Below, piece after piece: positions 28,117 to 56,698 of a DNA stretch of 64,000 bases (position 1 is the stretch's first letter; every line of letters starts with the position of its first letter). Origin of the DNA: Bacteroidales bacterium (GTDB taxonomy: Bacteria; Bacteroidota; Bacteroidia; Bacteroidales; UBA932). Both the position numbers and the translations under genes were made by a program. The stretch covers positions 78,650 through 142,649 of the forward strand of contig JAFZQO010000006.1 in the NCBI GenBank assembly GCA_017620335.1, given 5' to 3'. The notes under the pieces are model-generated. The model was given only the letters and a program-made list of their open reading frames with translations, made no database searches and was not told the origin of the DNA.

Positions 28117-28640
28117 TCAAGTACGTCCCGGAGATGACCTCCGTCGTGATGGAGGAGATACCCGACCGCGTTACCCTGGCAGTGGACATATCCAACTGCC
28201 GGGGTAACTGCATAGGGTGTCACTCGCCGTTCCTGAAAGAAGATGTCGGCGAGGAGCTCACGCCCTCGGTCATCGACTCACTGGTCGAGGCCAACTTCGG
28301 CATTGACTGCTTCCTCTTCCTCGGGGAGGGGAGGGATCCGGAAAGGCTGCTCGAGCTCGCCGCCCACGTCAGGTCGCTGGGCCTCATACCCGCACTGTAC
28401 AGCGGCAGAAGGGAAGTGGACGGCAATTTCTGGGAGTATTTCGACTATCTCAAAGTCGGCCCTTATATCCCCGAGCAGGGACCTCTGAACAATCCCGGGA
28501 CCAATCAGAGGCTGTACCGCGTCCTTGGCGCGGATGAAAAGGCCCCGGAGGGAGCCGAGTTCCGCATGCGGGCCTCCGGCCGCCGCTTCATCGACATCAC
28601 CCCTCGTTTCTGGCACCGCGGCCTGGAGGCGCAGAAATGA
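28113..28640 (+). CDS. nrdG: Anaerobic RNR activating protein, radical SAM
   Basis: A 175-residue activase that installs the glycyl radical on NrdD using AdoMet and a [4Fe-4S] cluster. The cluster motif CRGNCIGC (CxxxCxxC) is near residue 29. The start at 28113, overlapping the nrdD stop, was chosen over longer in-frame readings that run inside nrdD. A terminator follows. Confidence 0.95.
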   Translation: MIKYVPEMTSVVMEEIPDRVTLAVDISNCRGNCIGCHSPFLKEDVGEELTPSVIDSLVEANFGIDCFLFLGEGRDPERLLELAAHVRSLGLIPALYSGRREVDGNFWEYFDYLKVGPYIPEQGPLNNPGTNQRLYRVLGADEKAPEGAEFRMRASGRRFIDITPRFWHRGLEAQK

Positions 28641-28646
28641 ATCTTT

Positions 28647-28677
28647 CCGAAAATTCCTTCGGAATATTTTGGTTTTT
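28647..28677 (+). terminator. Terminator of nrdDG
   Basis: CCGAAAATTCC and GGAATATTTTGG pair around a TTC loop with one bulge, followed by five T. The glnN -33 element lies within the 3' arm. Confidence 0.7.
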
Positions 28678-28697
28678 AAAAATTTTTTCTAACTTTG
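28668..28697 (+). promoter_or_regulatory. glnN promoter
   Basis: TTTG (28668-28671), an 18-base spacer, then TAACTTTG (28690-28697). The predicted start is near 28701, which leaves an unusually long 5' region of about 190 bases before the glnN ATG. Confidence 0.75.
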
Positions 28698-28721
28698 TAA
28701 GCAGTTGGTTAGAGAACAGAT

Positions 28722-28808
28722 ATGGCACACGTCGATCAGAAAAAGCAGAAGCGCTCTCAGGCTCAGGCCTGGCAGCGCGTTTGTCGTCGTATCCACCCGG
28801 TTGGATAG
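28722..28808 (+). CDS. Candidate Gln-rich leader peptide of glnN
   Basis: A 28-codon ORF beginning MAHVDQKKQK and ending RRIHPVG before TAG. It has five Gln codons (6, 9, 13, 15 and 18) and is basic overall. It starts about 21 bases after the predicted transcription start, with a weak purine-rich ribosome-binding site (AGAGA). Gln enrichment in front of glutamine synthetase mirrors the His run in front of hisG, but five in 28 could arise by chance and the codons are not consecutive. Confidence 0.5.
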   Translation: MAHVDQKKQKRSQAQAWQRVCRRIHPVG

Positions 28809-28846
28809 CGAGTCTGAAACGACTGTACGCCTGTAATCCCATATTG

Positions 28847-28882
28847 TCCGGTTCTCCCACGTGGCGAATCGGATTTTTATTT
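28847..28882 (+). terminator. Intrinsic terminator in the glnN leader
   Basis: TCCGGTTC (28847-28854) pairs with GAATCGGA (28866-28873), 8 bp with one G-U, followed by TTTTTATTT. It ends 9 bases before the glnN ATG and would cut the transcript before the gene. Confidence 0.7.
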
Positions 28883-28891
28883 GAAAAGGAT

Positions 28892-31072
28892 ATGGAAAGC
28901 AACAGACTGGACCTGGTAAGGTATTCCTTCGAGAAGAAGGCACTGCCCGTGGATGTCCCTCAGGAACGTACTTCCGAGTATTACGGCGAACTCGTGTTCG
29001 ACCGCGCGAAGATGCGCAGGTATCTCAAGCCGGACGTGCTCAGGGCACTGCTGGACTGCATCGACAACAGCAAGCCCCTCGACCGCACCACCGCCGACGG
29101 AGTTGCCAGGGGCATGAAGGAATGGGCCCTGGACCATCACGTGACCCATGTCACGCACTGGTTCCAGCCCCTGACCGAAGGCACCGCCGAGAAGCACGAC
29201 GCCCTGATCGAGTATGACGGCGAAGGGGGAGTGATAGAACAGTTCGACGGCAAGTCGCTCGCACAGCAGGAACCCGACGCCTCCTCGTTCCCCAGCGGGG
29301 GCATCCGCGCCACCTTCGAGGCGCGCGGATACACCGCGTGGGATCCGACCTCTCCGGTGTTCATCCAGGGCGACACCCTCTGTATCCCAACCGTTTTCAT
29401 TTCCTATACCGGCGAGGCCCTGGACTACAAGACCCCGCTGAAAAAGGCCATCAAGGCCGTTTCAGACGCCGCCCTGCCCATCTGCCGTCTCTTCGACCCG
29501 GCCGTGAACAAGGTTTTCTGCTATCTCGGATGGGAGCAGGAGTATTTCCTCGTCGACGAGGCCCTGTACGCAGCCAGGCCCGACCTGATGATCACCGGCC
29601 GCACGCTCATGGGGCACATGTCATCCAAGAACCAGCAGCTTGACGACCATTACTTCGGAGCCATCCCTTCGCGCGTGGCCGCTTTCATGCGTGAGCTCGA
29701 GATAGCCGGGCACAGGCTCGGCATCCCCCTGAAGACCAGGCATAACGAGGTTGCGCCGAACCAGTTCGAGCTCGCCCCCATCTACGGTGAATGCAATCTC
29801 TCCAACGACCAGAACCAGATGGTGATGAACCTCATGAACACCATCGCCCGCAAGCACGGATTCGTGGTCCTGCTTCACGAGAAACCTTTCGAGGGCATCA
29901 ACGGCTCCGGCAAGCACAACAACTGGTCGCTCGGCACCGATACCGGCGTGCCGCTCATGGCGCCTGGCAAGGACCCGATGGGCAACCTCCAGTTCATCAC
30001 GTTCTTCGTCAACGTGCTCGCTGCCGTGCAGAGGCACAACGCCCTGCTCAAGGCCAGCATAGCAAGCGCCACCAACGCACACCGCCTCGGCGCCAACGAG
30101 GCTCCGCCCGCAATTGTCTCGGCCTTCCTCGGCCGCACGATGACGCAGGTGCTCCGCAAGCTCCTGGAGCTGCCGTCCGACACCCCCGTCGAGATCGCGG
30201 GCAAGAAGGGCCGCGGAGTCGGCCTCGTCGAGATACCCGAGATCTTCGTGGACAATACGGACCGCAACCGCACCTCGCCCTTCGCCTTCACCGGCAACCG
30301 TTTCGAGTTCCGCGCCGTCGGCTCCTCTGCCAATTGCGGCGAGGCCATGGCTACGCTCAACGCCGCCGTCGCGCAGCAGCTTACGGCCTTCAAGAAGGAC
30401 CTGGACGCCGAGCTTGCAAAGGGCAAGGAACTCCGCGTCGCGCTCATGGATACGCTCAAGCCTGTCATAAGCTCTATCCTCGACGTCGTCTGCTTCGACG
30501 GCAACGGCTATTCCGAGGAGTGGAAAGCCGAGGCCGCAAGGCGCGGTCTGGACACCGAGACCAGGGTCCCCGAGATGATCAAGGCATACCTCGCCCCCGG
30601 CGCCTTGGAGATGTTCGCCGAGACCGGAGTCTTCTCCGAGAAGGAGATCATCGCCCGCTGCGACGTCAAGTGGGAGACTTACTGCAAGAAGGTGCAGATC
30701 GAGTCGCGGGTGATGGCCAGGATGGCCGCGAACCATATCGTGCCAACAGCCATAGAGTACAAGACCCGGCTGCTGAAGGAGATGTCCCTGAACAAGGATG
30801 TCCTCGGTTCGCTCGAGGGCTGCGACACCGAGCTCGGCATGGTCAGGGAGATTTCCGCCCTCATCGACGAAATCCGCGAGCGCGTGGATGCCATGCACTC
30901 GGCCCGGAAGGCCGCCAACGCCATCGAAGATACCTGCGGGAGGGCTGAGGCCTATTATTATATCGCCGAGAGCCTGTACGCTCTCCGCAAGCCCATCGAC
31001 AGGCTCGAGGAGATCGTCGACAACAGCCTCTGGCCCCTTCCCAAGTACCGCGAACTATTGTTTATCAGTTAG
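28892..31072 (+). CDS. glnN: Glutamine synthetase, type III
   Basis: ATP-dependent amidation of glutamate. The 726-residue length is that of GSIII (dodecameric, Bacteroidota/cyanobacteria) rather than GSI (~450). ATG 28892 after AAAAGGAT was chosen; an in-frame reading from 28637 would cross the promoter and terminator. Motifs: EQEYFLVDE near residue 212 (catalytic Glu), RHNEVAPNQFELAP near 284, and NGSGKHNNWSLGTDTG near 336. It leads a block of ammonia-handling genes, ddh 27 bases later. Confidence 0.96.
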   Translation: MESNRLDLVRYSFEKKALPVDVPQERTSEYYGELVFDRAKMRRYLKPDVLRALLDCIDNSKPLDRTTADGVARGMKEWALDHHVTHVTHWFQPLTEGTAEKHDALIEYDGEGGVIEQFDGKSLAQQEPDASSFPSGGIRATFEARGYTAWDPTSPVFIQGDTLCIPTVFISYTGEALDYKTPLKKAIKAVSDAALPICRLFDPAVNKVFCYLGWEQEYFLVDEALYAARPDLMITGRTLMGHMSSKNQQLDDHYFGAIPSRVAAFMRELEIAGHRLGIPLKTRHNEVAPNQFELAPIYGECNLSNDQNQMVMNLMNTIARKHGFVVLLHEKPFEGINGSGKHNNWSLGTDTGVPLMAPGKDPMGNLQFITFFVNVLAAVQRHNALLKASIASATNAHRLGANEAPPAIVSAFLGRTMTQVLRKLLELPSDTPVEIAGKKGRGVGLVEIPEIFVDNTDRNRTSPFAFTGNRFEFRAVGSSANCGEAMATLNAAVAQQLTAFKKDLDAELAKGKELRVALMDTLKPVISSILDVVCFDGNGYSEEWKAEAARRGLDTETRVPEMIKAYLAPGALEMFAETGVFSEKEIIARCDVKWETYCKKVQIESRVMARMAANHIVPTAIEYKTRLLKEMSLNKDVLGSLEGCDTELGMVREISALIDEIRERVDAMHSARKAANAIEDTCGRAEAYYYIAESLYALRKPIDRLEEIVDNSLWPLPKYRELLFIS

Positions 31073-31099: not shown

Positions 31100-31999
31100 A
31101 TGGAAAAGATCAAAGTTGCGATTGTCGGTTACGGCAACATCGGCAGGTATTCGCTGGAGGCGGTCGAGGCCGCCCCGGACATGGAATGCGTCGGAGTGGT
31201 CCGCAGGAGCGGGTCCGCCGAGGGCTTCCCGGAACTTGCCGCCTATAACGTGGTTTCCGATATAAGGGAACTGGGAAAGGTGGACGTCGCCATCCTTGCG
31301 ACCCCTTCGAGGAAGGTCAAGGAGAATGCGGAGAAATACCTGGCCATGGGCATCAATACCGTGGACAGCTTCGACATCCACACTGACATCTGCGCGCTCC
31401 GCGCCGACCTCGATCCCCTGGCCAAGGCCAACGGGGCCGTCAGCATCATTTCGGCCGGCTGGGATCCGGGTAGCGACTCCATTGTCCGCGCCCTGATGCA
31501 AGGCCTCGCCCCCAAGGGTGTGACCTATACCAATTTCGGCCCCGGACGCTCCATGGGCCATTCCGTGGCCGCCAAGTCCATCCCCGGTGTGAAAGACGCC
31601 CTGAGCGTAACCATCCCGATAGGCACCGGCCTGCACCGCCGCATGGTGTACGTCGAGCTTGAGGAGGGCGCCGATTTCGCGGCAGTGGACGCCGCCATCC
31701 ACGCCGACCCGTACTTCTCCCACGACGAGACGCATGTGACGCAGGTGGACTGCGTCGACGACCTCAATGACGTCGGCCACGGCGTGAACCTCGTCCGCAA
31801 GGGCGTCTCCGGCAAGACCCACAACCAGCATTTCGAGTTCGACATGAGCATCAACAACCCCGCCCTCACGGGCCAGGTCCTCGTCATGGTAGCCCGCGCG
31901 GCCGTACGCCAGCGCCCTGGTTGCTACACCATGATCGAGATTCCCGTCATCGACATGCTCGCCGGCGACCGCGAAACGCTCATCCGCAGCCTCGTATAG
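31100..31999 (+). CDS. ddh: meso-Diaminopimelate dehydrogenase
   Basis: NADPH-dependent reductive amination that makes meso-DAP in one step from tetrahydrodipicolinate, for lysine and peptidoglycan. It has 299 residues. The N-terminal Rossmann motif is [15 protein letters not shown]. The substrate region includes [19 protein letters not shown] (about residue 115) and [14 protein letters not shown] (about 145), all signature sequences of Ddh. It consumes free ammonia, which fits its place between glnN and gdhA. Confidence 0.95.
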
Positions 32000-32037: not shown

Positions 32038-33396
32038 ATGTCAAAGTTTACTGACAAGTATGTCGAGTCTTTCATGACCGACCTCATCGCCAAGAACCCC
32101 GGTGAGACCGAGTTCCACCAGGCAGTCCGTGAAGTCCTTACCAGCGTCGCTCCCGTCCTCGAGGCCTATCCCCATCTCCTTGACAACAAGATCATGGAGC
32201 GCATCGTGGAGCCCGAGCGCGTCATCATGTTCCGCGTTCCCTGGACCGACGACAAGGGCGAGATCCACATCAACCGCGGTTTCCGCGTGCAGATGAACAG
32301 CGCCATCGGCCCTTACAAGGGCGGTATCCGCTTCCATGCCAGCGTCAACCTCAGCATCATGAAGTTCCTCGCCTTCGAGCAGACCTTCAAGAACAGCCTT
32401 ACCACTCTCCCCATGGGCGGCGGCAAGGGCGGCTCCGACTTCAACCCGCGCGGCAAGTCCGACGCCGAGGTCATGCGTTTCTGCCAGAGCTTCATGACCG
32501 AGCTTCAGCGCCACATCGGCCAGGACACCGACGTTCCCGCCGGTGACATCGGCGTGGGCGGCCGTGAGATCGGCTTCCTCTTCGGCCAGTACAAGCGTCT
32601 GCGCGACGAGTTCACCGGCACCCTGACCGGCAAGGGCCTCGCATGGGGCGGCAGCCTCCTGCGTCCTGAGGCCACCGGCTACGGCGCCTGCTATTTCGCA
32701 CAGGACATGCTCGCCACCCGCGGCGAGACCTTCGAGGGCAAGACCGTCGTCGTCTCCGGCGCCGGCAACGTCGCCCAGCATGCCGCCGAGAAGGCCATGC
32801 GCCTCGGCGCCAAGGTCGTCACCCTCTCCGACTCCGACGGCTTCGTCTATGACCCGGACGGCTTCAACGAGGAGAAGATCGCCTATGTGAAGCATCTCAA
32901 GAACGCCCTCCGCGGACGTATCAAGGAGTATGTGACCAAATATCCCAACGCTACCTACACCGGCAACGGTGAGAAGCCTTGGGGCGTCAAGTGCGACATC
33001 GCCATGCCTTGCGCCACCCAGAACGAGCTTAACGGCGAGCAGGCCAAGCTCCTCCTTGCCAACGGCTGCATGTGCGTTTGCGAAGGCGCCAACATGCCTT
33101 GCACCCCCGAGGCCATCGAGGCCTTCCAGGCCGCGAAGATCCTCTATTCCCCGGGCAAGGCGTCCAACGCCGGCGGCGTGGCTACTTCCGGTCTTGAGAT
33201 GACCCAGAACTCCATCCGCCAGAAGTGGACCTCCGAGGAGGTCGACGCCCAGCTCCACAGGATCATGTCCGACATCCACGCCGCGTGCCTCAAGTACGGC
33301 ACTGAGGAGGACGGATATATCAACTACGTGAAGGGCGCCAACATCGCCGGCTTCATCAAGGTCGCCAACGCAATGGTCGACCAGGGACTTGTTTAA
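32038..33396 (+). CDS. gdhA: Glutamate dehydrogenase, NADP-type
   Basis: Reductive amination of 2-oxoglutarate. It has 452 residues of the hexameric family. NSAIGPYKGGIRFHASVN near residue 86 and the catalytic-Lys segment LPMGGGKGGSDFNPRGKSD near 124 are typical. A Rossmann GAGNVAQHAAEKA is near residue 241. It follows ddh by 38 bases and precedes the receiver/ATP-grasp gene by 9, probably in one transcript. With GSIII it gives the usual Bacteroides ammonia-assimilation pair. Confidence 0.96.
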   Translation: MSKFTDKYVESFMTDLIAKNPGETEFHQAVREVLTSVAPVLEAYPHLLDNKIMERIVEPERVIMFRVPWTDDKGEIHINRGFRVQMNSAIGPYKGGIRFHASVNLSIMKFLAFEQTFKNSLTTLPMGGGKGGSDFNPRGKSDAEVMRFCQSFMTELQRHIGQDTDVPAGDIGVGGREIGFLFGQYKRLRDEFTGTLTGKGLAWGGSLLRPEATGYGACYFAQDMLATRGETFEGKTVVVSGAGNVAQHAAEKAMRLGAKVVTLSDSDGFVYDPDGFNEEKIAYVKHLKNALRGRIKEYVTKYPNATYTGNGEKPWGVKCDIAMPCATQNELNGEQAKLLLANGCMCVCEGANMPCTPEAIEAFQAAKILYSPGKASNAGGVATSGLEMTQNSIRQKWTSEEVDAQLHRIMSDIHAACLKYGTEEDGYINYVKGANIAGFIKVANAMVDQGLV

Positions 33397-33405
33397 AAGA
33401 TTCAA

Positions 33406-36342
33406 ATGGAAAGCAGCACGACATTGATGTCCAGGCGTATCCGCAGTATCCTGCTGATATGCAACAGTTACGACAGCTTCTCCCTTGAGGAGGATGGACG
33501 TATAGAAACGCAGATCGCGCAGGAGTACGCGGAGCTGGGTCTGAGCAACCCGCCGCAGATCCGGAGGGTGGAGACCACCGCCGAAGCGCTCACCCTCTTC
33601 GAGGGCGGCGAGCGCTTCGACCTGGTCATCACCATGTATTACGTGGGGGAGATCAATGTCTTCGAGTTTTCGGAGAAAGCGAAGGGGTACGATCCGGACA
33701 TGCCGATCGTACTCCTTTCGTCGTTCTCCAGGGAGGTTTACCGCAAGATCGAGTCCTTCGGGCGTTCCGGCATCGACTACGTCTTCTGCTGGAACAATTC
33801 CACGGACCTCATCATCGCCATCATCAAGCTCCTGGAGGACCGGATCAACGCCGAGGACGACATCCTGGGCGGGGGAGTGCAGGGCATACTCCTGGTGGAG
33901 GATTCCATCCGCTATTATTCCACCTACCTGCCCGCGCTCTACCGCATGGTGCTGCAGCAGAACAAGGAGTCCATCAAGGACACCCTGAACGAGCAGCAGC
34001 AGATCGCGCGGAAGCGGGCCAGGCCCAAGATCCTGATGGCCACGAACTACGAAGACGCGGTCGCGCTGTACGAGAAATACAAGACCAACCTGCTCGGTGT
34101 CATAACCGACGTGGGCTTCGTCCTGCACAAGGACGACAAATCCTCCGACGAGAAGATCGACGCCGGAGTGGACCTCTGCCGAATGATACGCGCAGACAAT
34201 CCCCGCATGCCCATACTCATGCAGTCCTCCCAGGAGAGCATGAGGGTCGTGGCGAAGGGGCTGGGCGTTGGATTCATCCGCAAGTCCTCCAAGATGCTCC
34301 TTCAGGAGCTCGAGGAATACATAGAGCGCGAGTTCGGCTTCGGTGACTTCGTCGCCGTCGATCCCGCCACCGGTGTGGAGATAGGCCGTGCGAGGGACCT
34401 CTACGAGTTTGAGAACCTCTTGCGCACGATACCCCCGACCGTTTTCCGGGCCCTCGCGGACAAGAACTATCTGTCCAAGTGGCTCTATTCCAGGGGTATA
34501 TTCAAGCTTGGAAGGGCTCTCAACCCCGTCCGCTCCGAGGACTATGCCGACGTGGAGACGCACAGGGCGTATGACCTCAAGGTCATCCACGACTACCGCA
34601 TTTCCCAGGCTCTCGGCGTCGTTGCGGCCTTCAATCCCGCGACCTTCAACGACACCATCTGGTTCTCGCGCCTCGGTACGGGATCCATCGGCGGCAAGGC
34701 CCGCGGCCTGGCTTTCCTGAACAACATCCTCGAAAAATACAACCTCTACGACCAGTGGGAGGACGTGCATGTCATGGTGCCGCGCACCCTGGTCATCACG
34801 ACCGACTGGTTCGACCGCTTCATCCATGAGAACGGCCTGAAATACGTCATCGACTCGGACATGAGCGACAGCGACCTGCTGTCCGAATTCGTATCCTCCA
34901 ACCTCCCGAAGGAGCTTATGGATTCACTCAAGGCCTTCATCAAGGTTGTCCGCAAGCCTCTAGCCGTACGTTCCTCGTCGCGTCTGGAAGATTCCTACCA
35001 TCAGCCGTTCGCGGGTGTATATTCGACTTACATGCTTCCTTGGGCCGACCATACCGGCCAGCAGCTCAGGCTCCTCTCCAAGGCCATAAAGAGCGTCTAT
35101 GCCAGCGTTTTCTTCTCCGCCGCCAAGAGCTATATCCTTTCCTCCGGCAACGTCATCTCCGAGGAGAAGATGGCCATCGTCATCCAGGAGGTCTGCGGCA
35201 GCGAGGACCACGGTTATTTCTTCCCGACCGTGTCGGGAGTGGCCCGCTCGATCAACTTCTATCCCGTCGGTCACGAGACCGCCGAGGACGGCATCGTAAA
35301 GGTCGCCTACGGCCTCGGAAAGGCCGTCGTGGACGGCGAGCAGGTACTCCGTTTCTCCCCGAAATATCCCAAGCACGCCCTCCAGGTTTCGACTCCGGAA
35401 CTGGTCATGACAGACACGCAGAAGTCTATGCTTGCGCTGAGCATGAGCCCGGAGCGCTTCAAGACTTCGGTGGACGAAGCCGTGAACCTCGAGCGGCTCA
35501 ACATCGTGGACTGCTACAAGTTCAGGTCCTTCTCAAAGGTCGTCTCCACCTGGGACTACAGCAACATGCGAATGGTCGATTCCGCGTTCCCTGAGGGACC
35601 GAAGTACATCACCTTCGCCCAGATGCTCAAATACAACACGGTGCCCATAGCCGACATCGTGGACCGTCTCCTGCACATCGCCAAGGACGAAATGAAGTGC
35701 AACGTGGAGATCGAGTTCGCTGCCGACTTCGAGCCGGACGGCAGGGCCCTGTTCAACGTGCTTCAGGTCAGGCCCATTTCTGTCGACACCCGTTTCGCGG
35801 ATGTCAATTGGGATGAGATCGATACGGATGACGCGTTCCTGACTTCAGGCTGCGCCCTCGGCACGGGCTGGGTGGAAGGCGTGCAGGACGTCGTTTATTT
35901 GAAGAAGGACGCCTGGGACGTGCTCAAGACGCATGACATAGCGAGCGAAGTGTCCGCGGTCAATACTCGGATGCTTGAGGAAGGGAAGGGATACATCCTC
36001 ATCGGTTTCGGCCGCTGGGGCACCAGCCAGCCCACTTTGGGCGTTCCGGTGCGCTGGAGCGACATCTCGGAGGCGAAGGCCATCGTGGAGTGCTCGCTGC
36101 CGAACTTCCAGATCGATCCCAGCCAGGGTACGCACTTCTTCCAGAACCTGACATCCTTCAATGTCGGATACATCAACGTCAATCCTTACGCCCATCATGA
36201 GGACAGGCTTGACTTCTCCGTACTCGACGCCATGCCGGCGGTGAGTGAGACGGAGTACCTGCGCCACGTGCGCTTCCAGGACGAACTGCAGGTCTGCATT
36301 GACGGCAAGACCAACAGGGCAATGGTAAAATGCAAAGGATAA
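33406..36342 (+). CDS. Receiver-like domains fused to a PEP synthase/PPDK-type ATP-binding domain; function unknown
   Basis: A 978-residue cytoplasmic protein. Residues ~13-150 look like a degenerate receiver: no acidic pair in [11 protein letters not shown], and Met where phospho-Asp is expected (LVITMYY). Residues ~160-320 look like an intact one (LLVEDS, VITDVGF, Lys in FIRKSSK). From ~420 on is a pyruvate-phosphate-dikinase N-terminal ATP-grasp domain: [29 protein letters not shown], and LQVRPIS near 787. The phosphohistidine (TSH) swivel and PEP/pyruvate barrel of true PPDK/PpsA are absent. It overlaps guaA by 13 bases. Confidence 0.75.
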
Positions 36343-37850
36343 TCATCCTCGATTTCGGGTCCCAGACGACCCAGCTTATTGGCAGGCGCGTACGCGAACT
36401 GCATACTTTCTGCGAAATACTCCCTTACGACAAGTATCCCTCCGACGACTCGGACGTGATCGGCGTGATTCTCAGCGGCTCCCCGCTGAGCGTGTATGCG
36501 CCGGACGCGGCCAGGCCCGACTTGTCGGGCTTCCTGGGCCGCCTGCCGGTGCTCGGCATCTGCTACGGCGCCCAACTTCTCAGCTACAGCCTCGGCGGCC
36601 TCGTCGAGCCCGTCGGGACGCGCGAGTACGGCCGTGCTGAGCTGTCCTCCATCGACCCTTCCTGCCCGCTTTTCAGCGGCATCAAGGCCCCTTCGCAGGT
36701 ATGGATGAGCCATGGGGATACCATTACCCGGCTGCCTGAAGGATATAAGGTTACGGCGTCCACCGAGAGCGTCCGGTTCGCGGCGTTCGAGGCATCCGAC
36801 GCGCCCGTGTGGGGCGTGCAGTTCCACCCTGAGGTTATGCACACCACCGAGGGCGCGCGTCTCCTGGAAAACTTCGTCGTGGGCATCTGCGGCAGCCGCC
36901 GCGAATGGACTCCCGACTCGTTCGTTGAGAGCTCCGTGCAGGAGCTCCGCACCATGCTAGGGAACGACAAGGTCGTCCTCGGCCTGAGCGGCGGCGTGGA
37001 TTCGTCCGTTGCGGCCGTGCTCCTGAACCGCGCCATAGGCAGCAATCTCACCTGCATCTTCGTCAACCACGGCCTTCTGCGCAAGCACGAGTTCGAGGAT
37101 GTCATGGAGGACTATAAGGGCTTGGGGCTCAACGTCATAGGCGTGGACGCATCGGAATCTTTCCTGTCGGAACTGGCAGGGGAGGCGGACCCGGAGCGCA
37201 AGCGCAAGATCATAGGCAGGAAGTTCGTCGAGGTCTTCAACGCCGAGGCGGCGAAGATCGAGGGTGCCCGCTGGCTCGCCCAGGGCACCATCTATCCCGA
37301 CCGCATCGAGAGTAGTAATATCACCGGCAAGGTCATCAAGAGCCACCACAACGTCGGCGGCCTCCCGAAGGAGATGAAGCTGAAACTGTGCGAGCCCTTG
37401 AAATGGCTGTTCAAGGATGAGGTCCGTGCTGTCGGCCTCAGCCTCAGGATGCCGCGCAGGATGGTGTTCAGGCATCCTTTCCCGGGTCCGGGACTCGCGG
37501 TACGCATCCTCGGGGACATCACACCTGAGAAGGTGCGCATACTGCAGGACGTGGACGACATCTTCATGAGAGGCCTGCGTGACAACGGCCTTTACGAAAA
37601 GGTCTGGCAGGCCGGGGCCATCCTCCTTCCGGTCCGGACGGTCGGCGTTATGGGCGACGAGCGCACCTACGACAGGGCTGTCGTGCTGCGCGCGGTGACC
37701 AGCTCGGACGCCATGACCGCCGACTGGGCTGACCTCCCGGTCGGCTTCATGAGGAATATCAGCAATGAGATTATCAACAAGGTGAAGGGCGTCAACAGAG
37801 TATGTTACGACATCTCCTCCAAACCCCCGGCAACCATAGAATGGGAATAG
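36330..37850 (+). CDS. guaA: GMP synthase (glutamine-hydrolysing)
   Basis: Amination of XMP to GMP, 506 residues. The N-terminal class I glutaminase has [12 protein letters not shown] with catalytic Cys near residue 76, and the partner His-Glu in FHPEVMHT. The ATP pyrophosphatase domain has the PP-loop [14 protein letters not shown] near 215. The C-terminal dimerisation domain ends KPPATIEWE, as in the family. It depends on glutamine made by glnN upstream. Start overlaps the preceding gene; glmS begins 3 bases after its stop. Confidence 0.97.
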
Positions 37851-37853
37851 CTT

Positions 37854-39698
37854 ATGTGCGGAATCGTAGGATATATAGGTGACAGGCAGGCTTGCCCGAT
37901 CCTGGTGAAGGGCCTCAAGAGGCTCGAATACAGAGGATACGACAGTGCCGGAGTGGCCCTGGTGGGGGAGGACGGCTCCCTGAACGTTTACAAGTGCAAG
38001 GGAAAGATCAGCGCCCTGGAGCATTTCCTTGAGGACAAGGACACCCGCGGCACGATAGGCATCGCCCATACGCGCTGGGCCACCCATGGGGAGCCCAACG
38101 ACACCAATGCACACCCCCATTTCTCTTCCGACGGGAAGATTGCGATGATCCACAACGGCATCATCGAGAATTACCGCGTGCTGAAGGAGGCGCTTTCCGC
38201 CGAGGGAGTGGTTTTCCGCAGTGAGACCGATTCTGAAGTGCTGGTCAATCTCATCGAGTATGTGCGCGTAACTGAAGGCTGTTCCCTTGAAGAGGCGGTG
38301 CGTCTAGCCCTCAAGAAGGCCGTGGGAGCCTATGCTATCGCCGTCATTGAGCAGTGCAACCGCGACAGGATCATCGCCGCCCGCCAGAGCAGCCCTATGG
38401 CCATTGGCGTGGGTAAAGGGGAGTATTTCATCAGCTCCGACGCTTCTTCCATTGTCGAATACACCCATGAAATAGTCTATGTCGAGGACGGCGAGATAGC
38501 CGTCATCGAGCGCGGCAAACCCCTGCAGCTCATCACTTTGGAGAACCAGGAGGCGGATGTCAAGATCACTACTCTGGATATCTCCATCTCCGACCTGGAG
38601 AAGGGAGGCTATCCCACATTCATGCTCAAGGAGATCAACGAGCAGCCCCGCACCATCGTCGACTGCATCAGGGGACGCGTGAATTCCGAGAGCGGACACG
38701 TCATCCTTTCCGGAATCCGGGACAATATCGACCGCTGGTTGGCGGCCCGTCGTGTCATATTCGTCGCGTGCGGCACTTCGTGGCATGCCTCGCTTATCGG
38801 CAAGCAGCTCTTCGAGAACATCTGCCGCATTCCCGCCGAGGTGGAGTACGCGTCGGAATTCCGCTATCGCAACCCTGTCCTTTATCCTGACGACGTGGTA
38901 ATCGCCGTGTCGCAGTCCGGCGAGACCGCAGACACGCTGGCGGCCATCACGCTTGCGCGGAAGGCTGGAGCGTTCGTTTACGGCATCTGCAACGTCATTG
39001 GCTCGAGCATAGCGCGTGCGACCGACAGCGGTACTTACGTTCACGTAGGCCCCGAGATCGGCGTCGCCTCGACCAAGGCCTTCACCGGACAGGTCACGGT
39101 CATGGCCATGATGGCGCTGACCATAGCCGAGCGCAAGGGGACTGTCTCCGGCGATTATTATGAAGAAGTGGCACAGGGCCTGCTCGGCCTTCCTGCGAAA
39201 CTGAAGGAGGTCCTGGAACTGAGCGGCCAGGTCGCGGACCTCGCCAAGATATTCACCTACGCGCACAACTTCATCTATCTCGGGCGCGGTTACAACTATC
39301 CTACTGCCCTCGAGGGAGCGCTCAAGCTCAAGGAAATCAGCTATATACATGCGGAAGGCTATCCGGCCGCAGAGATGAAGCACGGTCCTATCGCGCTCAT
39401 CGACGCGGAGATGCCGACGGTCGCCATCGTCACTCCTGACGTGACTTATGAAAAGACTCTGAGCAACATCGAGGAAGTCAAGGCCCGCGGCGGAAAGGTC
39501 ATCGCCGTCATGGCGAAAGGCGACGAGACCGTCCGCAGGATCGCGGACTATGTCATCGAGGTCCCTGCCACGACAGACTGCCTGATGCCGATCATCGTGT
39601 CCGTCCCCCTCCAGCTTCTCGCGTATTACATCGCGGTTTACAAGGGTCGCAACGTCGACCAGCCCCGCAACCTCGCCAAATCAGTGACAGTCGAGTAG
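37854..39698 (+). CDS. glmS: Glutamine-fructose-6-phosphate aminotransferase (isomerizing)
   Basis: Makes glucosamine-6-phosphate, the entry to amino-sugar and cell-wall synthesis. It has 614 residues. The mature N-terminus is MCGIVGYIGD with Cys2 as the glutaminase nucleophile, followed by RLEYRGYDSAGV and HTRWATHG. Two SIS domains form the isomerase, with CGTSWHA near residue 304, SQSGETADT near 350, and the C-terminal RNVDQPRNLAKSVTVE. A glmS ribozyme would sit upstream, but only 3 bases separate it from guaA, so none is present. Confidence 0.97.
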   Translation: MCGIVGYIGDRQACPILVKGLKRLEYRGYDSAGVALVGEDGSLNVYKCKGKISALEHFLEDKDTRGTIGIAHTRWATHGEPNDTNAHPHFSSDGKIAMIHNGIIENYRVLKEALSAEGVVFRSETDSEVLVNLIEYVRVTEGCSLEEAVRLALKKAVGAYAIAVIEQCNRDRIIAARQSSPMAIGVGKGEYFISSDASSIVEYTHEIVYVEDGEIAVIERGKPLQLITLENQEADVKITTLDISISDLEKGGYPTFMLKEINEQPRTIVDCIRGRVNSESGHVILSGIRDNIDRWLAARRVIFVACGTSWHASLIGKQLFENICRIPAEVEYASEFRYRNPVLYPDDVVIAVSQSGETADTLAAITLARKAGAFVYGICNVIGSSIARATDSGTYVHVGPEIGVASTKAFTGQVTVMAMMALTIAERKGTVSGDYYEEVAQGLLGLPAKLKEVLELSGQVADLAKIFTYAHNFIYLGRGYNYPTALEGALKLKEISYIHAEGYPAAEMKHGPIALIDAEMPTVAIVTPDVTYEKTLSNIEEVKARGGKVIAVMAKGDETVRRIADYVIEVPATTDCLMPIIVSVPLQLLAYYIAVYKGRNVDQPRNLAKSVTVE

Positions 39699-53161: not shown

Positions 53162-53181
53162 TCGACCCGTCGAAATATACG

Positions 53182-53213
53182 AAAACGGCTGACCCTTCCG
53201 GGCCAGCCGTTTT
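53182..53213. terminator. Bidirectional terminator between convergent genes
   Basis: AAAACGGCTGACCC and GGGCCAGCCGTTTT form a 14-bp stem with one mismatch and a TTCC loop. A-tract and T-tract at the ends allow termination on both strands. Confidence 0.9.
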
Positions 53214-55318: not shown

Positions 55319-56698
55319 ATGGCTTCCGGGGCGGGGAAGATACTGGTAGTGGATGACAACGCCGGCATACGCCGGACGTTGGAGATCCTGTTGCCGGTAC
55401 ACTTCTCCGAAGTGAAGACCATACCCTCGCCGGTGACGCTGGTATCTACTCTGGAGCAATTCCAGCCGGACGTCGTGTTGCTGGACATGAATTTCCATAC
55501 CAGTATCAATACCGGCAATGAAGGCCTCTACTGGGCAGGGGAGATCAAGAAGATGGTCTCCGAGGTGGAGGTAGTTCTGTTTACGGCTTACGCCGACATC
55601 CAGCTGGCGGTGGAAGGGATGAAGAGGGGAGCCTTCGACTTTATAGTGAAGCCGTGGGAGAATGAAAAGCTGGTGGAAGTCCTGACCGCCGCCCGGGACA
55701 AGGCCCGCAAGGCGAAGGGTGTCAGGCCGGCCCCGGTCACGTCCGAGGCGCCTCACGCGCCGCAGGACCTCGCTCCGGGGCAGGTCGGGGATCCGATGTT
55801 CTGGGGCACCTCCCCGTCCATGAAATCCATCCGCAAGACGCTTGACAAGATCGCCCCGACGGATGCGACCGTGCTGATTACCGGCGAGAACGGTACCGGT
55901 AAGGACGTTCTCGCCCGGGAGATCCACTTCCGAAGCCTCCGGAGAGACAGACCTATGGTAGTTGTCGACGCCGGAGCCATCACCGAGACCCTCTTTGAAA
56001 GCGAGCTCTTTGGACACGTGAAAGGAGCTTTCACTGACGCGTTTACTGACCATGTAGGAAAGTTTGAGCAGGCCGACGGCGGTACCCTTTTCCTCGACGA
56101 GATCGGCAATATCCCGCTCCATCTGCAGGCTAAACTTTTGCGTGTGATCCAGAGCCGCAGCATCGTCCGTGTTGGCGGTACTAATGCCATTCCGGTGGAT
56201 ATCAGGCTGATTTGCGCTACCAATAAGGACCTCGAGGCGCTAGTGCGCGAAGGTCGTTTCCGCGAGGACCTTTACTACCGCATCAATACCGTCCATGTCG
56301 CACTGCCGCCCCTACGGGAGCGTCGCGAGGACATCGTACCGTTGGCAGATATGTTCCTGAAGGGGTTCGCGGAGAAGTATCACAGGCCGCTGACCGGGCT
56401 CGCGGCGGACGCCGCCGGCGCGCTGCAGGCGCAGCGCTGGGGCGGCAATGTCCGCGAGCTCCAGAACTGCATCGAGAAGGCCGTCATTCTCTCGGAAGGA
56501 ACTGTCCTGACCGTATCTGACCTGGCGCTGGATGCCCGATCTGCAACTGGCATGACGGATTCCTCCGACACTGCTGCCGAGGAGCGGCTCGTCCGCGACG
56601 CCATGCTGCGCACGGGCGGCAATGTCTCCGCCGCAGCGAAGCTGCTCGGAGTCAGCCGCCCCACCCTCTACGCCAAACTTAAAAAGTACGGTCTCTGA
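55319..56698 (+). CDS. Sigma-54-dependent response regulator, NtrC family
   Basis: A 459-residue protein. The receiver domain has acidic pair VVDDN, phospho-Asp in LLDMNF near residue 57, and Lys in VKPWE. The AAA+ domain has Walker A GENGTGKD near 186, the sigma-54 contact loop as GAFTDA (canonical GAFTGA), and Walker B GGTLFLDEIGNIP. Below it are the arginine-finger region and a C-terminal Fis-type helix-turn-helix (NVSAAAKLLGVSRPTLYAKLKKY). Its kinase follows 1 base later. Likely activator of the sigma-54 promoter at 57981. Confidence 0.93.
   Translation: MASGAGKILVVDDNAGIRRTLEILLPVHFSEVKTIPSPVTLVSTLEQFQPDVVLLDMNFHTSINTGNEGLYWAGEIKKMVSEVEVVLFTAYADIQLAVEGMKRGAFDFIVKPWENEKLVEVLTAARDKARKAKGVRPAPVTSEAPHAPQDLAPGQVGDPMFWGTSPSMKSIRKTLDKIAPTDATVLITGENGTGKDVLAREIHFRSLRRDRPMVVVDAGAITETLFESELFGHVKGAFTDAFTDHVGKFEQADGGTLFLDEIGNIPLHLQAKLLRVIQSRSIVRVGGTNAIPVDIRLICATNKDLEALVREGRFREDLYYRINTVHVALPPLRERREDIVPLADMFLKGFAEKYHRPLTGLAADAAGALQAQRWGGNVRELQNCIEKAVILSEGTVLTVSDLALDARSATGMTDSSDTAAEERLVRDAMLRTGGNVSAAAKLLGVSRPTLYAKLKKYGL

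Follow-up and report, generated by a model that had tools for sequence, protein, structure and literature searches.

A putative glutamine-codon leader attenuator before type III glutamine synthetase in Bacteroidales

The window considered in this study, which is the whole stretch of 64,000 nucleotides that was analysed, comes from a Bacteroidales genome of 2.76 Mb (54 contigs, 96.6% complete). Within it the gene for type III glutamine synthetase (GSIII), glnN, is preceded by a leader that, judged by comparison of sequences, very probably serves as a ribosome-mediated (trp-type) transcription attenuator sensing charged tRNA-Gln. Asn codons are present as well in many related leaders, which may therefore respond to asparagine too; in these relatives tRNA-Asn is probably sensed along with tRNA-Gln. 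A sequence-only reading of the window had proposed an undescribed Gln-type leader attenuator in front of a GSIII operon. That proposal is supported: the Gln codons are conserved, the leader has no match in Rfam 15, and no report of a Gln or Asn leader-peptide attenuator was found in the open-access literature (subscription papers lie mostly outside this search). Beyond that reading, the switch also occurs before glnK, gltB and asnB, including glnK in the window's own genome. The mechanism itself is already known; what appears to be new, by the open-access literature searched, is the specificity for Gln and Asn and the nitrogen-wide set of genes, as a variant of ribosome-mediated attenuation.

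The proposed mechanism rests on four segments of the leader, numbered 1 to 4. When glutamine is short, the ribosome would stall at the Gln codons of the leader and cover or crowd segment 1, leaving segment 2 free to pair with segment 3; this pairing would block the terminator, and RNA polymerase would go on to transcribe glnN and the genes that follow. With ample glutamine, the ribosome would reach the stop codon and cover segment 2, segments 3 and 4 would pair, and transcription would end before glnN. With no translation at all, segment 2 would stay within hairpin 1:2 and termination would be the usual outcome. I infer the stalling of the ribosome and the direction of control; the promoter box, the Gln-rich ORF, the terminator, their conservation and recurrence, the covariation of 2:3 and 3:4, the excess of hairpin 1:2 in relatives and the spacing are read from the sequences themselves.

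The glnN leader and the genes behind it

The features of the leader and of the genes that follow it are as follows.

28690-28697, + strand: promoter -7 box TAACTTTG, Bacteroidota type (read from the sequence, with the box in relatives)
28705-28713, + strand: 5'UTR element TTGGTTAGA, identical in L202, L203 and L267, also present in L002, which is without a Gln-rich ORF
28722-28808, + strand: leader ORF of 28 codons, MAHVDQKKQKRSQAQAWQRVCRRIHPVG, with five CAG (Gln) codons at 28737, 28746, 28758, 28764 and 28773
28790-28794, + strand: segment 1, TATCC, pairs with 28803-28807
28796-28800, + strand: core of segment 2, CCCGG, which lies in the hairpin 1:2 loop and is proposed as the antiterminator strand, its position fitting CCRGCC of relatives
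28803-28807, + strand: segment 1', GGATA, closes hairpin 1:2 and overlaps the stop codon (28806-28808)
28846-28854, + strand: segment 3, 5' arm of the terminator, GTCCGGTTC (fold and relatives)
28866-28874, + strand: segment 4, 3' arm of the terminator, GAATCGGAT (fold and relatives)
28874-28882, + strand: T tract of the terminator, TTTTTATTT (sequence)
28892-31072, + strand: glnN, GSIII (Pfam GSIII_N PF12437, 241 bits; PF00120, PF18318)
31100-31999, + strand: diaminopimelate dehydrogenase (TIGR01921, 359.7 bits, over cut-off)
32038-33396, + strand: gdhA, NADP-specific glutamate dehydrogenase (NF006929, 755 bits, over cut-off)
33406-36342, + strand: PPDK_N-domain protein (PF01326, 139 bits) with a weak receiver-like stretch (Response_reg below cut-off)
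36330-37850, + strand: guaA, GMP synthase, named by its domains (Pfam GMP_synt_C, GATase)
37854-39698, + strand: glmS-like glutamine amidotransferase with SIS domains, named by its domains (Pfam SIS, GATase_6)

The gene upstream of the leader, ending at 28640, is presumably nrdG-like. A promoter had been claimed about 190 bases before glnN, and the box TAACTTTG lies there; I call it a promoter on the assumption that TAnnTTTG is the consensus of the Bacteroidota -7 box. A scan of the window for sigma-70 promoters gave nothing ahead of the leader ORF. In related leaders the box, as TANNTTTG or TANNTTGC, is found in 44 of 52 (shuffled sequences average 6.6, with a maximum of 13), mostly 100-127 nt 5' of segment 2. 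As to the 5'UTR element at 28705-28713, TTGGTT reappears by eye in several other leaders.

The 28-codon ORF with its five Gln codons, also noticed from the sequence alone, exceeds what shuffling would produce, since of 5000 dinucleotide shuffles of 28693-28891 only 7 contain an ATG ORF that is 15-60 codons long and has five or more Gln codons. The share of Gln in the leader ORF is 17.9%, as against 2.7% in nine genes of the window, and the leader has no Asn codons. The intrinsic terminator claimed just 5' of glnN is likewise real as a fold: its stem (28846-28874, with the T tract running to 28882) has a predicted energy of -14.1 kcal/mol (z -2.76, equalled by 1 of 200 shuffles), and the T tract ends 9 nt before the glnN ATG. 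The leader folded as a whole has a z of -2.17, and 7 of 200 shuffles fold equally well. A simple scan of the window for terminators did not list this one, probably because its loop is longer than 8 nt.

The successive genes from glnN to the glmS-like gene are separated by gaps of 27, 38, 9, -13 and 3 nt and presumably form one transcript. Leaving aside the PPDK_N protein, I take the products of the cluster to be, without exception, enzymes that use ammonia or glutamine. The PPDK_N protein, with its sub-threshold receiver-like stretch, is encoded between gdhA and guaA, inside the putative nitrogen operon. The window's genome encodes a GlnRS (701.8 bits), and GatB was not found in it (96.6% complete), so the charging of tRNA-Gln should follow free glutamine. 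The genome also encodes sigma-54 and NtrC-like proteins that score below the NtrC cut-off, and for this reason the attenuator is not claimed as the sole regulator. One NtrC-like stretch lies in the window itself, at 55340-56536 (G000:C5:133989-135185; 342 bits, below the NtrC cut-off).

If the leader instead held a glutamine riboswitch or a T-box, the ORF would be incidental. Glutamine riboswitches do control glutamine metabolism in cyanobacteria, according to the available text of PMC6316151, but no Rfam 15 family matches 28601-28950 at E ≤ 1, and Rfam finds nothing except a tRNA gene at 11 related loci. Of the explanations considered here this is the least probable, and I give it hardly any weight. 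A tRNA-like decoy was considered as well, and ARAGORN finds none.

Proposed alternative helices in related leaders and in the window

Alignments of leaders from related Bacteroidales support a trp-type switch with a common layout: hairpin 1:2 with segment 2 in its loop, an antiterminator formed by 2:3 and a terminator formed by 3:4. The alignment A3 has 56 distinct rows, and the model that aligned them was fitted to the terminator, not to the 2:3 pairs. In A3, segment 2 (CCRGCC) and segment 3 (GGCYGG) are paired in 93.0% of lettered cells, as against 3.5-54.0% when one is slid along the other; after shuffling, the mean is 90.6% and 1 of 500 shuffles reaches 93.0%. Two-sided changes occur in 15 cells (shuffled mean 7.6), a number reached by none of 500 shuffles, nor does any of 500 reach the covariation score. 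Further pair types are no more numerous than in shuffles, 493 of 500 of which have as many. Segment 2 belonged to the consensus used to find the rows, and sequences that are related can outscore shuffles of this kind even with no structure. The terminator, 3:4, is 97.7% paired with 73 two-sided changes, reached by 0 of 500 shuffles, in an alignment that leans to the terminator.

Hairpin 1:2 is stronger than expected in 51 distinct related leaders, with a mean duplex energy of -12.2 kcal/mol compared to -8.1 kcal/mol with shuffled spacers (p 3e-9), and taken singly 26 of the 51 reach p ≤ 0.05 by energy and 14 by helix length. The distance from the last Gln codon to segment 2 has a median of 30 nt (IQR 26.5-31) over 39 leaders, and is 23 nt in the window. 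Measured from the end of the stop codon in the same 39, L159 aside, the start of segment 2 ranges from 23 nt upstream to 11 nt downstream. These statistics exclude 12 rows that have no ATG ORF by rule (a GTG start or no ATG; L139 at a contig edge), and they retain L159, whose ORF was mis-assigned, as an outlier. The spacing would fit a stalled ribosome that frees segment 2 and a terminating ribosome that covers it.

Folding with a ribosome mask, applied to 54 leaders, lends the model modest backing across the set: segment 3 is predicted to be paired at 0.60 with the ribosome stalled and at 0.43 with it at the stop codon (p 0.003), with 22 leaders clearly for the model and 7 clearly against, and the stalled value is not above that obtained with shuffled spacers (0.54, p 0.12). 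RNAalifold draws an additional hairpin over the Gln codons in columns 32-56 of alignment A1 (CAGAACC...GGTCCTG, with several two-sided changes), which might, as one thought, be a pause hairpin.

Three close relatives of the window leader lie before GSIII genes whose products are 89-92% identical to that of the window (L202, L203 and L267); the relatives named by their GSIII are Candidatus Cryptobacteroides and Bacteroidales MAGs from rumen or gut. The leader peptide is MLNGFQKKQKRSQAQSWQGVCCRIHPVG in L202 and L203 and MANGFQKKQKRSQAQSWQGVCRRIHPVG in L267, and the leaders of L202 and L203 are identical, so that three relatives provide two independent comparisons. All five Gln codons, whose conservation the sequence-only reading had put forward as a check, are kept in the three relatives (two distinct leaders), as are the hairpin TATCCACCCGGTTGGATA and segment 3 (CATATTRTCCGGTTCT). 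Codons 2-5 and most of the spacer have changed. In the window, hairpin 1:2 (28790-28807) reads TATCC-ACCCGGTT-GGATA, with a predicted energy of -5.3 kcal/mol and the same letters throughout the window-type leaders, and it is presumably the counterpart of hairpin 1:2 in the wider relatives.

The window leader fits the family models poorly. R1, a covariance model whose training set was 17 leaders other than the window's, does not match it when run on 28701-28890, and R1 also misses L032, a relative of the window leader. R2, the model derived from A3, has its best match in 350 nt at the right position, though a weak one (7.5 bits, E 0.018). Segments 2 and 3 have only CCGG in common in the window-type leaders, and the window's 2:3 contact, which would be its antiterminator, is CCGG:CCGG; shuffles reach the energy of the 2:3 duplex in 49% of cases for the window, 8% for L202 and 17% for L267. 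The ribosome-mask values for the three window-type leaders are split (0.56/0.68, 0.18/0.46 and 0.51/0.15).

Such a poor match and weak 2:3 pairing might mean that the attenuator has decayed, with loss of the antiterminator from the window's lineage and survival of the Gln ORF and of a terminator that acts constitutively, and related GSIII genes with a terminator but few Gln codons do exist (L002, L076 type). Yet the five Gln codons, hairpin 1:2 and segments 2 and 3 were kept while the spacer and the N-terminal codons changed, and a constitutive terminator ahead of such an operon would presumably be costly. I therefore consider decay in the window unlikely. In five loci (L076, L086, L088, L096 and L097) GSIII follows a conserved terminator and ORFs with only 1-3 Gln codons, and these are possibly decayed attenuators.

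The sequence-only reading had placed the antiterminator elsewhere, in the region of the leader's start codon (28712-28725), which would pair with the 5' arm of the terminator so that initiation on the leader would help decide the outcome. Both of its 6-bp helices (28712-28725 with 28839-28856) do exist in the window, and the leader cut before segment 4 folds in this way. The first helix (AUAUGG/CCAUAU) is intact in L202 (6 of 6 pairs), where G-C has become U-G by a two-sided change, and has 5 of 6 in L267; the second (GAGAAC/GUUCUC) has 6 of 6 in L267, two of them wobbles; and both the 5'UTR element and the CATATT before segment 3 are conserved. The second helix, however, loses 3 of its 6 pairs in L202 (and thus in the identical leader of L203). 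The duplex of the 5'UTR with the terminator arm, -9.2 kcal/mol in the window, is matched in energy by 37-42% of shuffles (37% in the window), and AUAUG includes the start codon, which would be reason enough for its conservation. The compensatory changes that were expected in these helices are indeed present in relatives, but in 2:3 and 3:4. What stands of that claim is the presence of the helices in the window; as the antiterminator they are an unlikely choice, if a shade less so than decay, and 2:3, supported in the relatives as part of a trp-type switch, is the putative antiterminator retained here.

Leaders before other genes of nitrogen metabolism

GSIII is present in 327 of 398 genomes of the window's family. 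I examined 100 upstream regions of GSIII, which are part of the matches listed, and 25 of them have a full-length sense match to R1, 12 in its training set and 13 outside. Of 80 named loci, 26 have an ORF that starts with ATG and contains four or more Gln codons, and in 19 of those 26 the leader pattern is evident by eye. Typical leader peptides before GSIII in relatives are MAYFVYNQQQNQQSQAQQVPGVSVCV and MSFVVLNNNNQNNNQNQQVLIASV, and some related leaders appear to use a GTG start. A leader is lacking, or has few Gln codons, at several GSIII genes of the group.

Matches to R1 at E ≤ 0.01 occur in 200 of the 398 family genomes, many of them to the terminator part only. From these matches, 30 listed loci and 40 further places were taken. 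Of the 40, 28 carry in my judgement a leader with amino-acid coding (20 for Gln/Asn, 8 for Trp/Phe) and 12 carry none. The genes after the 20 Gln/Asn leaders encode PII (10), GSIII (4), AsnB (3), gcw_chp-glnK-amt (2) and GltB (1), with amt, carA and a glutamine amidotransferase taken for PurF found further downstream; one example of each kind was assigned by HMM and the rest by the same N-terminus. One leader of this sort, MIDIFTISANFKQQSQSESNNNSQNNLVSCPAGRIR, lies before glnK in the window's own genome, and by eye its core, GTCCTGCCGGCCGGATAAGG, resembles that of the window leader, ATCCACCCGGTTGGATAGCG.

The 51 leaders used above are Gln/Asn leaders by selection (55 loci were chosen, with Trp/Phe and leader-less ones excluded), and the final 30 or fewer residues of their frames average 20.6% Gln and 14.9% Asn. 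By N-terminal motif the genes after them are 33 GSIII, 10 PII, 4 AsnB, 1 GltB and 2 gcw_chp, together with L078, where the stretch is too short for the motif to be read but which was fetched as a GSIII upstream region.

Across the order, 28 of 295 genomes have R1 matches at E ≤ 1e-4, including the window's genome and one more of its family. Eleven of 30 loci among the matches listed were inspected. L283, in genome G649 of another family, has a leader upstream of GSIII; the remaining ten are by appearance terminators without a leader. Upstream of PII outside the family (29 loci, 24 of them inspected also before the preceding gene) none was convincing except L322, a leader before gcw_chp-glnK in the same genome, G649. 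L338 and L320 have ORFs bearing Asn or Gln codons and no clear terminator. At 13 GSIII loci of other families (L016, L018, L020-L030) no related leader was found by a rule that considers only the content of ORFs with ATG starts within 450 nt; the best ORFs have 5 Gln codons (L029) or otherwise at most 3, and were judged unrelated. Among the loci inspected, then, such leaders occur beyond the window's family in one genome only. R1 also matches the window at 53180-53213, which I rejected as an ordinary terminator between convergent genes with no leader; it is a strong bidirectional terminator (GGCTGGCCC...GGGTCAGCC) that looks like those of the attenuators.

In genus g39, eight loci (L165, L169, L173, L174 and L176-L179) have Trp/Phe-rich leaders that end in a similar kind of terminator and precede a TrpB-like gene. 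The peptides read like MNAQVNSFFFWRAWFWQSSVSVCASPIV, though L176 has no ATG by the ORF rule and for L178 the frame picked by the script was a different one further downstream. By eye, 30 nt separate the last Trp codon of L165 from the CCG of segment 2, and GTTTCTGTGTGCG follows the regulatory codons both in L165 and in Gln leaders such as L062. These leaders are apparently a Trp attenuator on the same scaffold, which suggests that the scaffold can be re-aimed by swapping regulatory codons.

The Trp/Phe version also bears on whether the window's short ORF might encode a functional small protein, with a hairpin of independent function, for instance hiding the glnN start. Residues 6-28 of the leader peptide are well conserved among window-type leaders, and the T tract stops very close to the glnN ATG. 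On the other hand, the peptides of wider relatives share little besides length and richness in Gln and Asn, the window peptide is without a Pfam match, and a version with other codons stands before a TrpB-like gene. I consider a small protein very unlikely.

Known attenuators and the control of nitrogen assimilation

Operons for trp, his, leu and ilv have attenuators of the trp type, and glutamine is a classical nitrogen signal. To my knowledge, little is understood of how ammonium assimilation is switched on in Bacteroidales.

The leaders described here resemble trp-type attenuators in having a leader ORF rich in codons of the pathway, alternative helices and an intrinsic terminator, as in the part of PMC1262725 available, which also describes complementary gGCC-rGCy-GGCC triples in actinobacterial trp attenuators. 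They differ in their Gln and Asn codons, in their occurrence in Bacteroidales and in the genes of ammonium assimilation that they precede (GSIII, glnK-amt, gltB, asnB). With the cyanobacterial glutamine riboswitches of types 1 and 2 they share the proposed role of a glutamine-sensing RNA in nitrogen metabolism; those, however, bind through a direct aptamer and are said, in the accessible portion of PMC6316151, to be restricted to cyanobacteria, whereas the leaders here have no Rfam match. Two motifs in the available text of PMC8632094 are also comparable: the gltD (SRC-18-1) riboswitch candidate lies upstream of a glutamate synthase gene, as does one leader here (gltB), and the uORFC-8-2 cysS motif, like the leaders here, has an upstream ORF (with Cys codons) and features of ribosome-mediated attenuation. 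But uORFC-8-2 belongs to Rhodobacterales, both motifs are associated with other genes than those found here, and that text names neither a Gln-codon leader nor Bacteroidales.

Within the same phylum, leader-peptide attenuation has been suggested before amino-acid operons of Flavobacterium psychrophilum (PMC9723704) and for small ORFs in 5'UTRs of B. thetaiotaomicron (PMC7366714). Unlike the present case, the accessible parts of these two papers name no glutamine or nitrogen-assimilation leader.

Tentatively, and with slightly more doubt than conviction, I propose that in this group of Bacteroidales the translating ribosome is a main sensor of nitrogen status, through a Gln/Asn attenuator regulon of glnK-amt, GSIII, gltB, gdhA (in the window), asnB, carA, a PurF-like gene, guaA and glmS, on a scaffold that can be re-aimed by a codon swap. 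If this is true, the regulon would join the uptake and sensing of ammonium (glnK-amt), its assimilation (GSIII, gltB and the window's gdhA) and the users of amide nitrogen (asnB, carA, PurF-like, guaA, glmS). The occurrence of such leaders before glutamine synthetase and further nitrogen genes suggests that uncultured Bacteroidales of gut and rumen judge their nitrogen supply by the ribosome running short of glutamine (or asparagine). A switch governed by tRNA charging would link glutamine directly to gene control, without an aptamer or NtrC.

Prevotella ruminicola 23 offers an analogy. Under low ammonium its amtB, PRU_1977, glnK, asnB, glnN-2 and gltBD rise approximately 27- to 69-fold, as given in the available part of PMC5552732. 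The words NtrC, promoter and sigma are absent from the main text of that paper, and so are 'attenuat' and 'leader'. Its low-ammonium genes are largely of the same kinds as those behind the Gln/Asn leaders here. A Gcw_chp-like protein adjoins glnK-amt at L168 (428-1120; Pfam 23.3 against a cut-off of 24), as does one that is Gcw_chp-like by look at L183 (428-1117), and their position recalls that of PRU_1977 in P. ruminicola.
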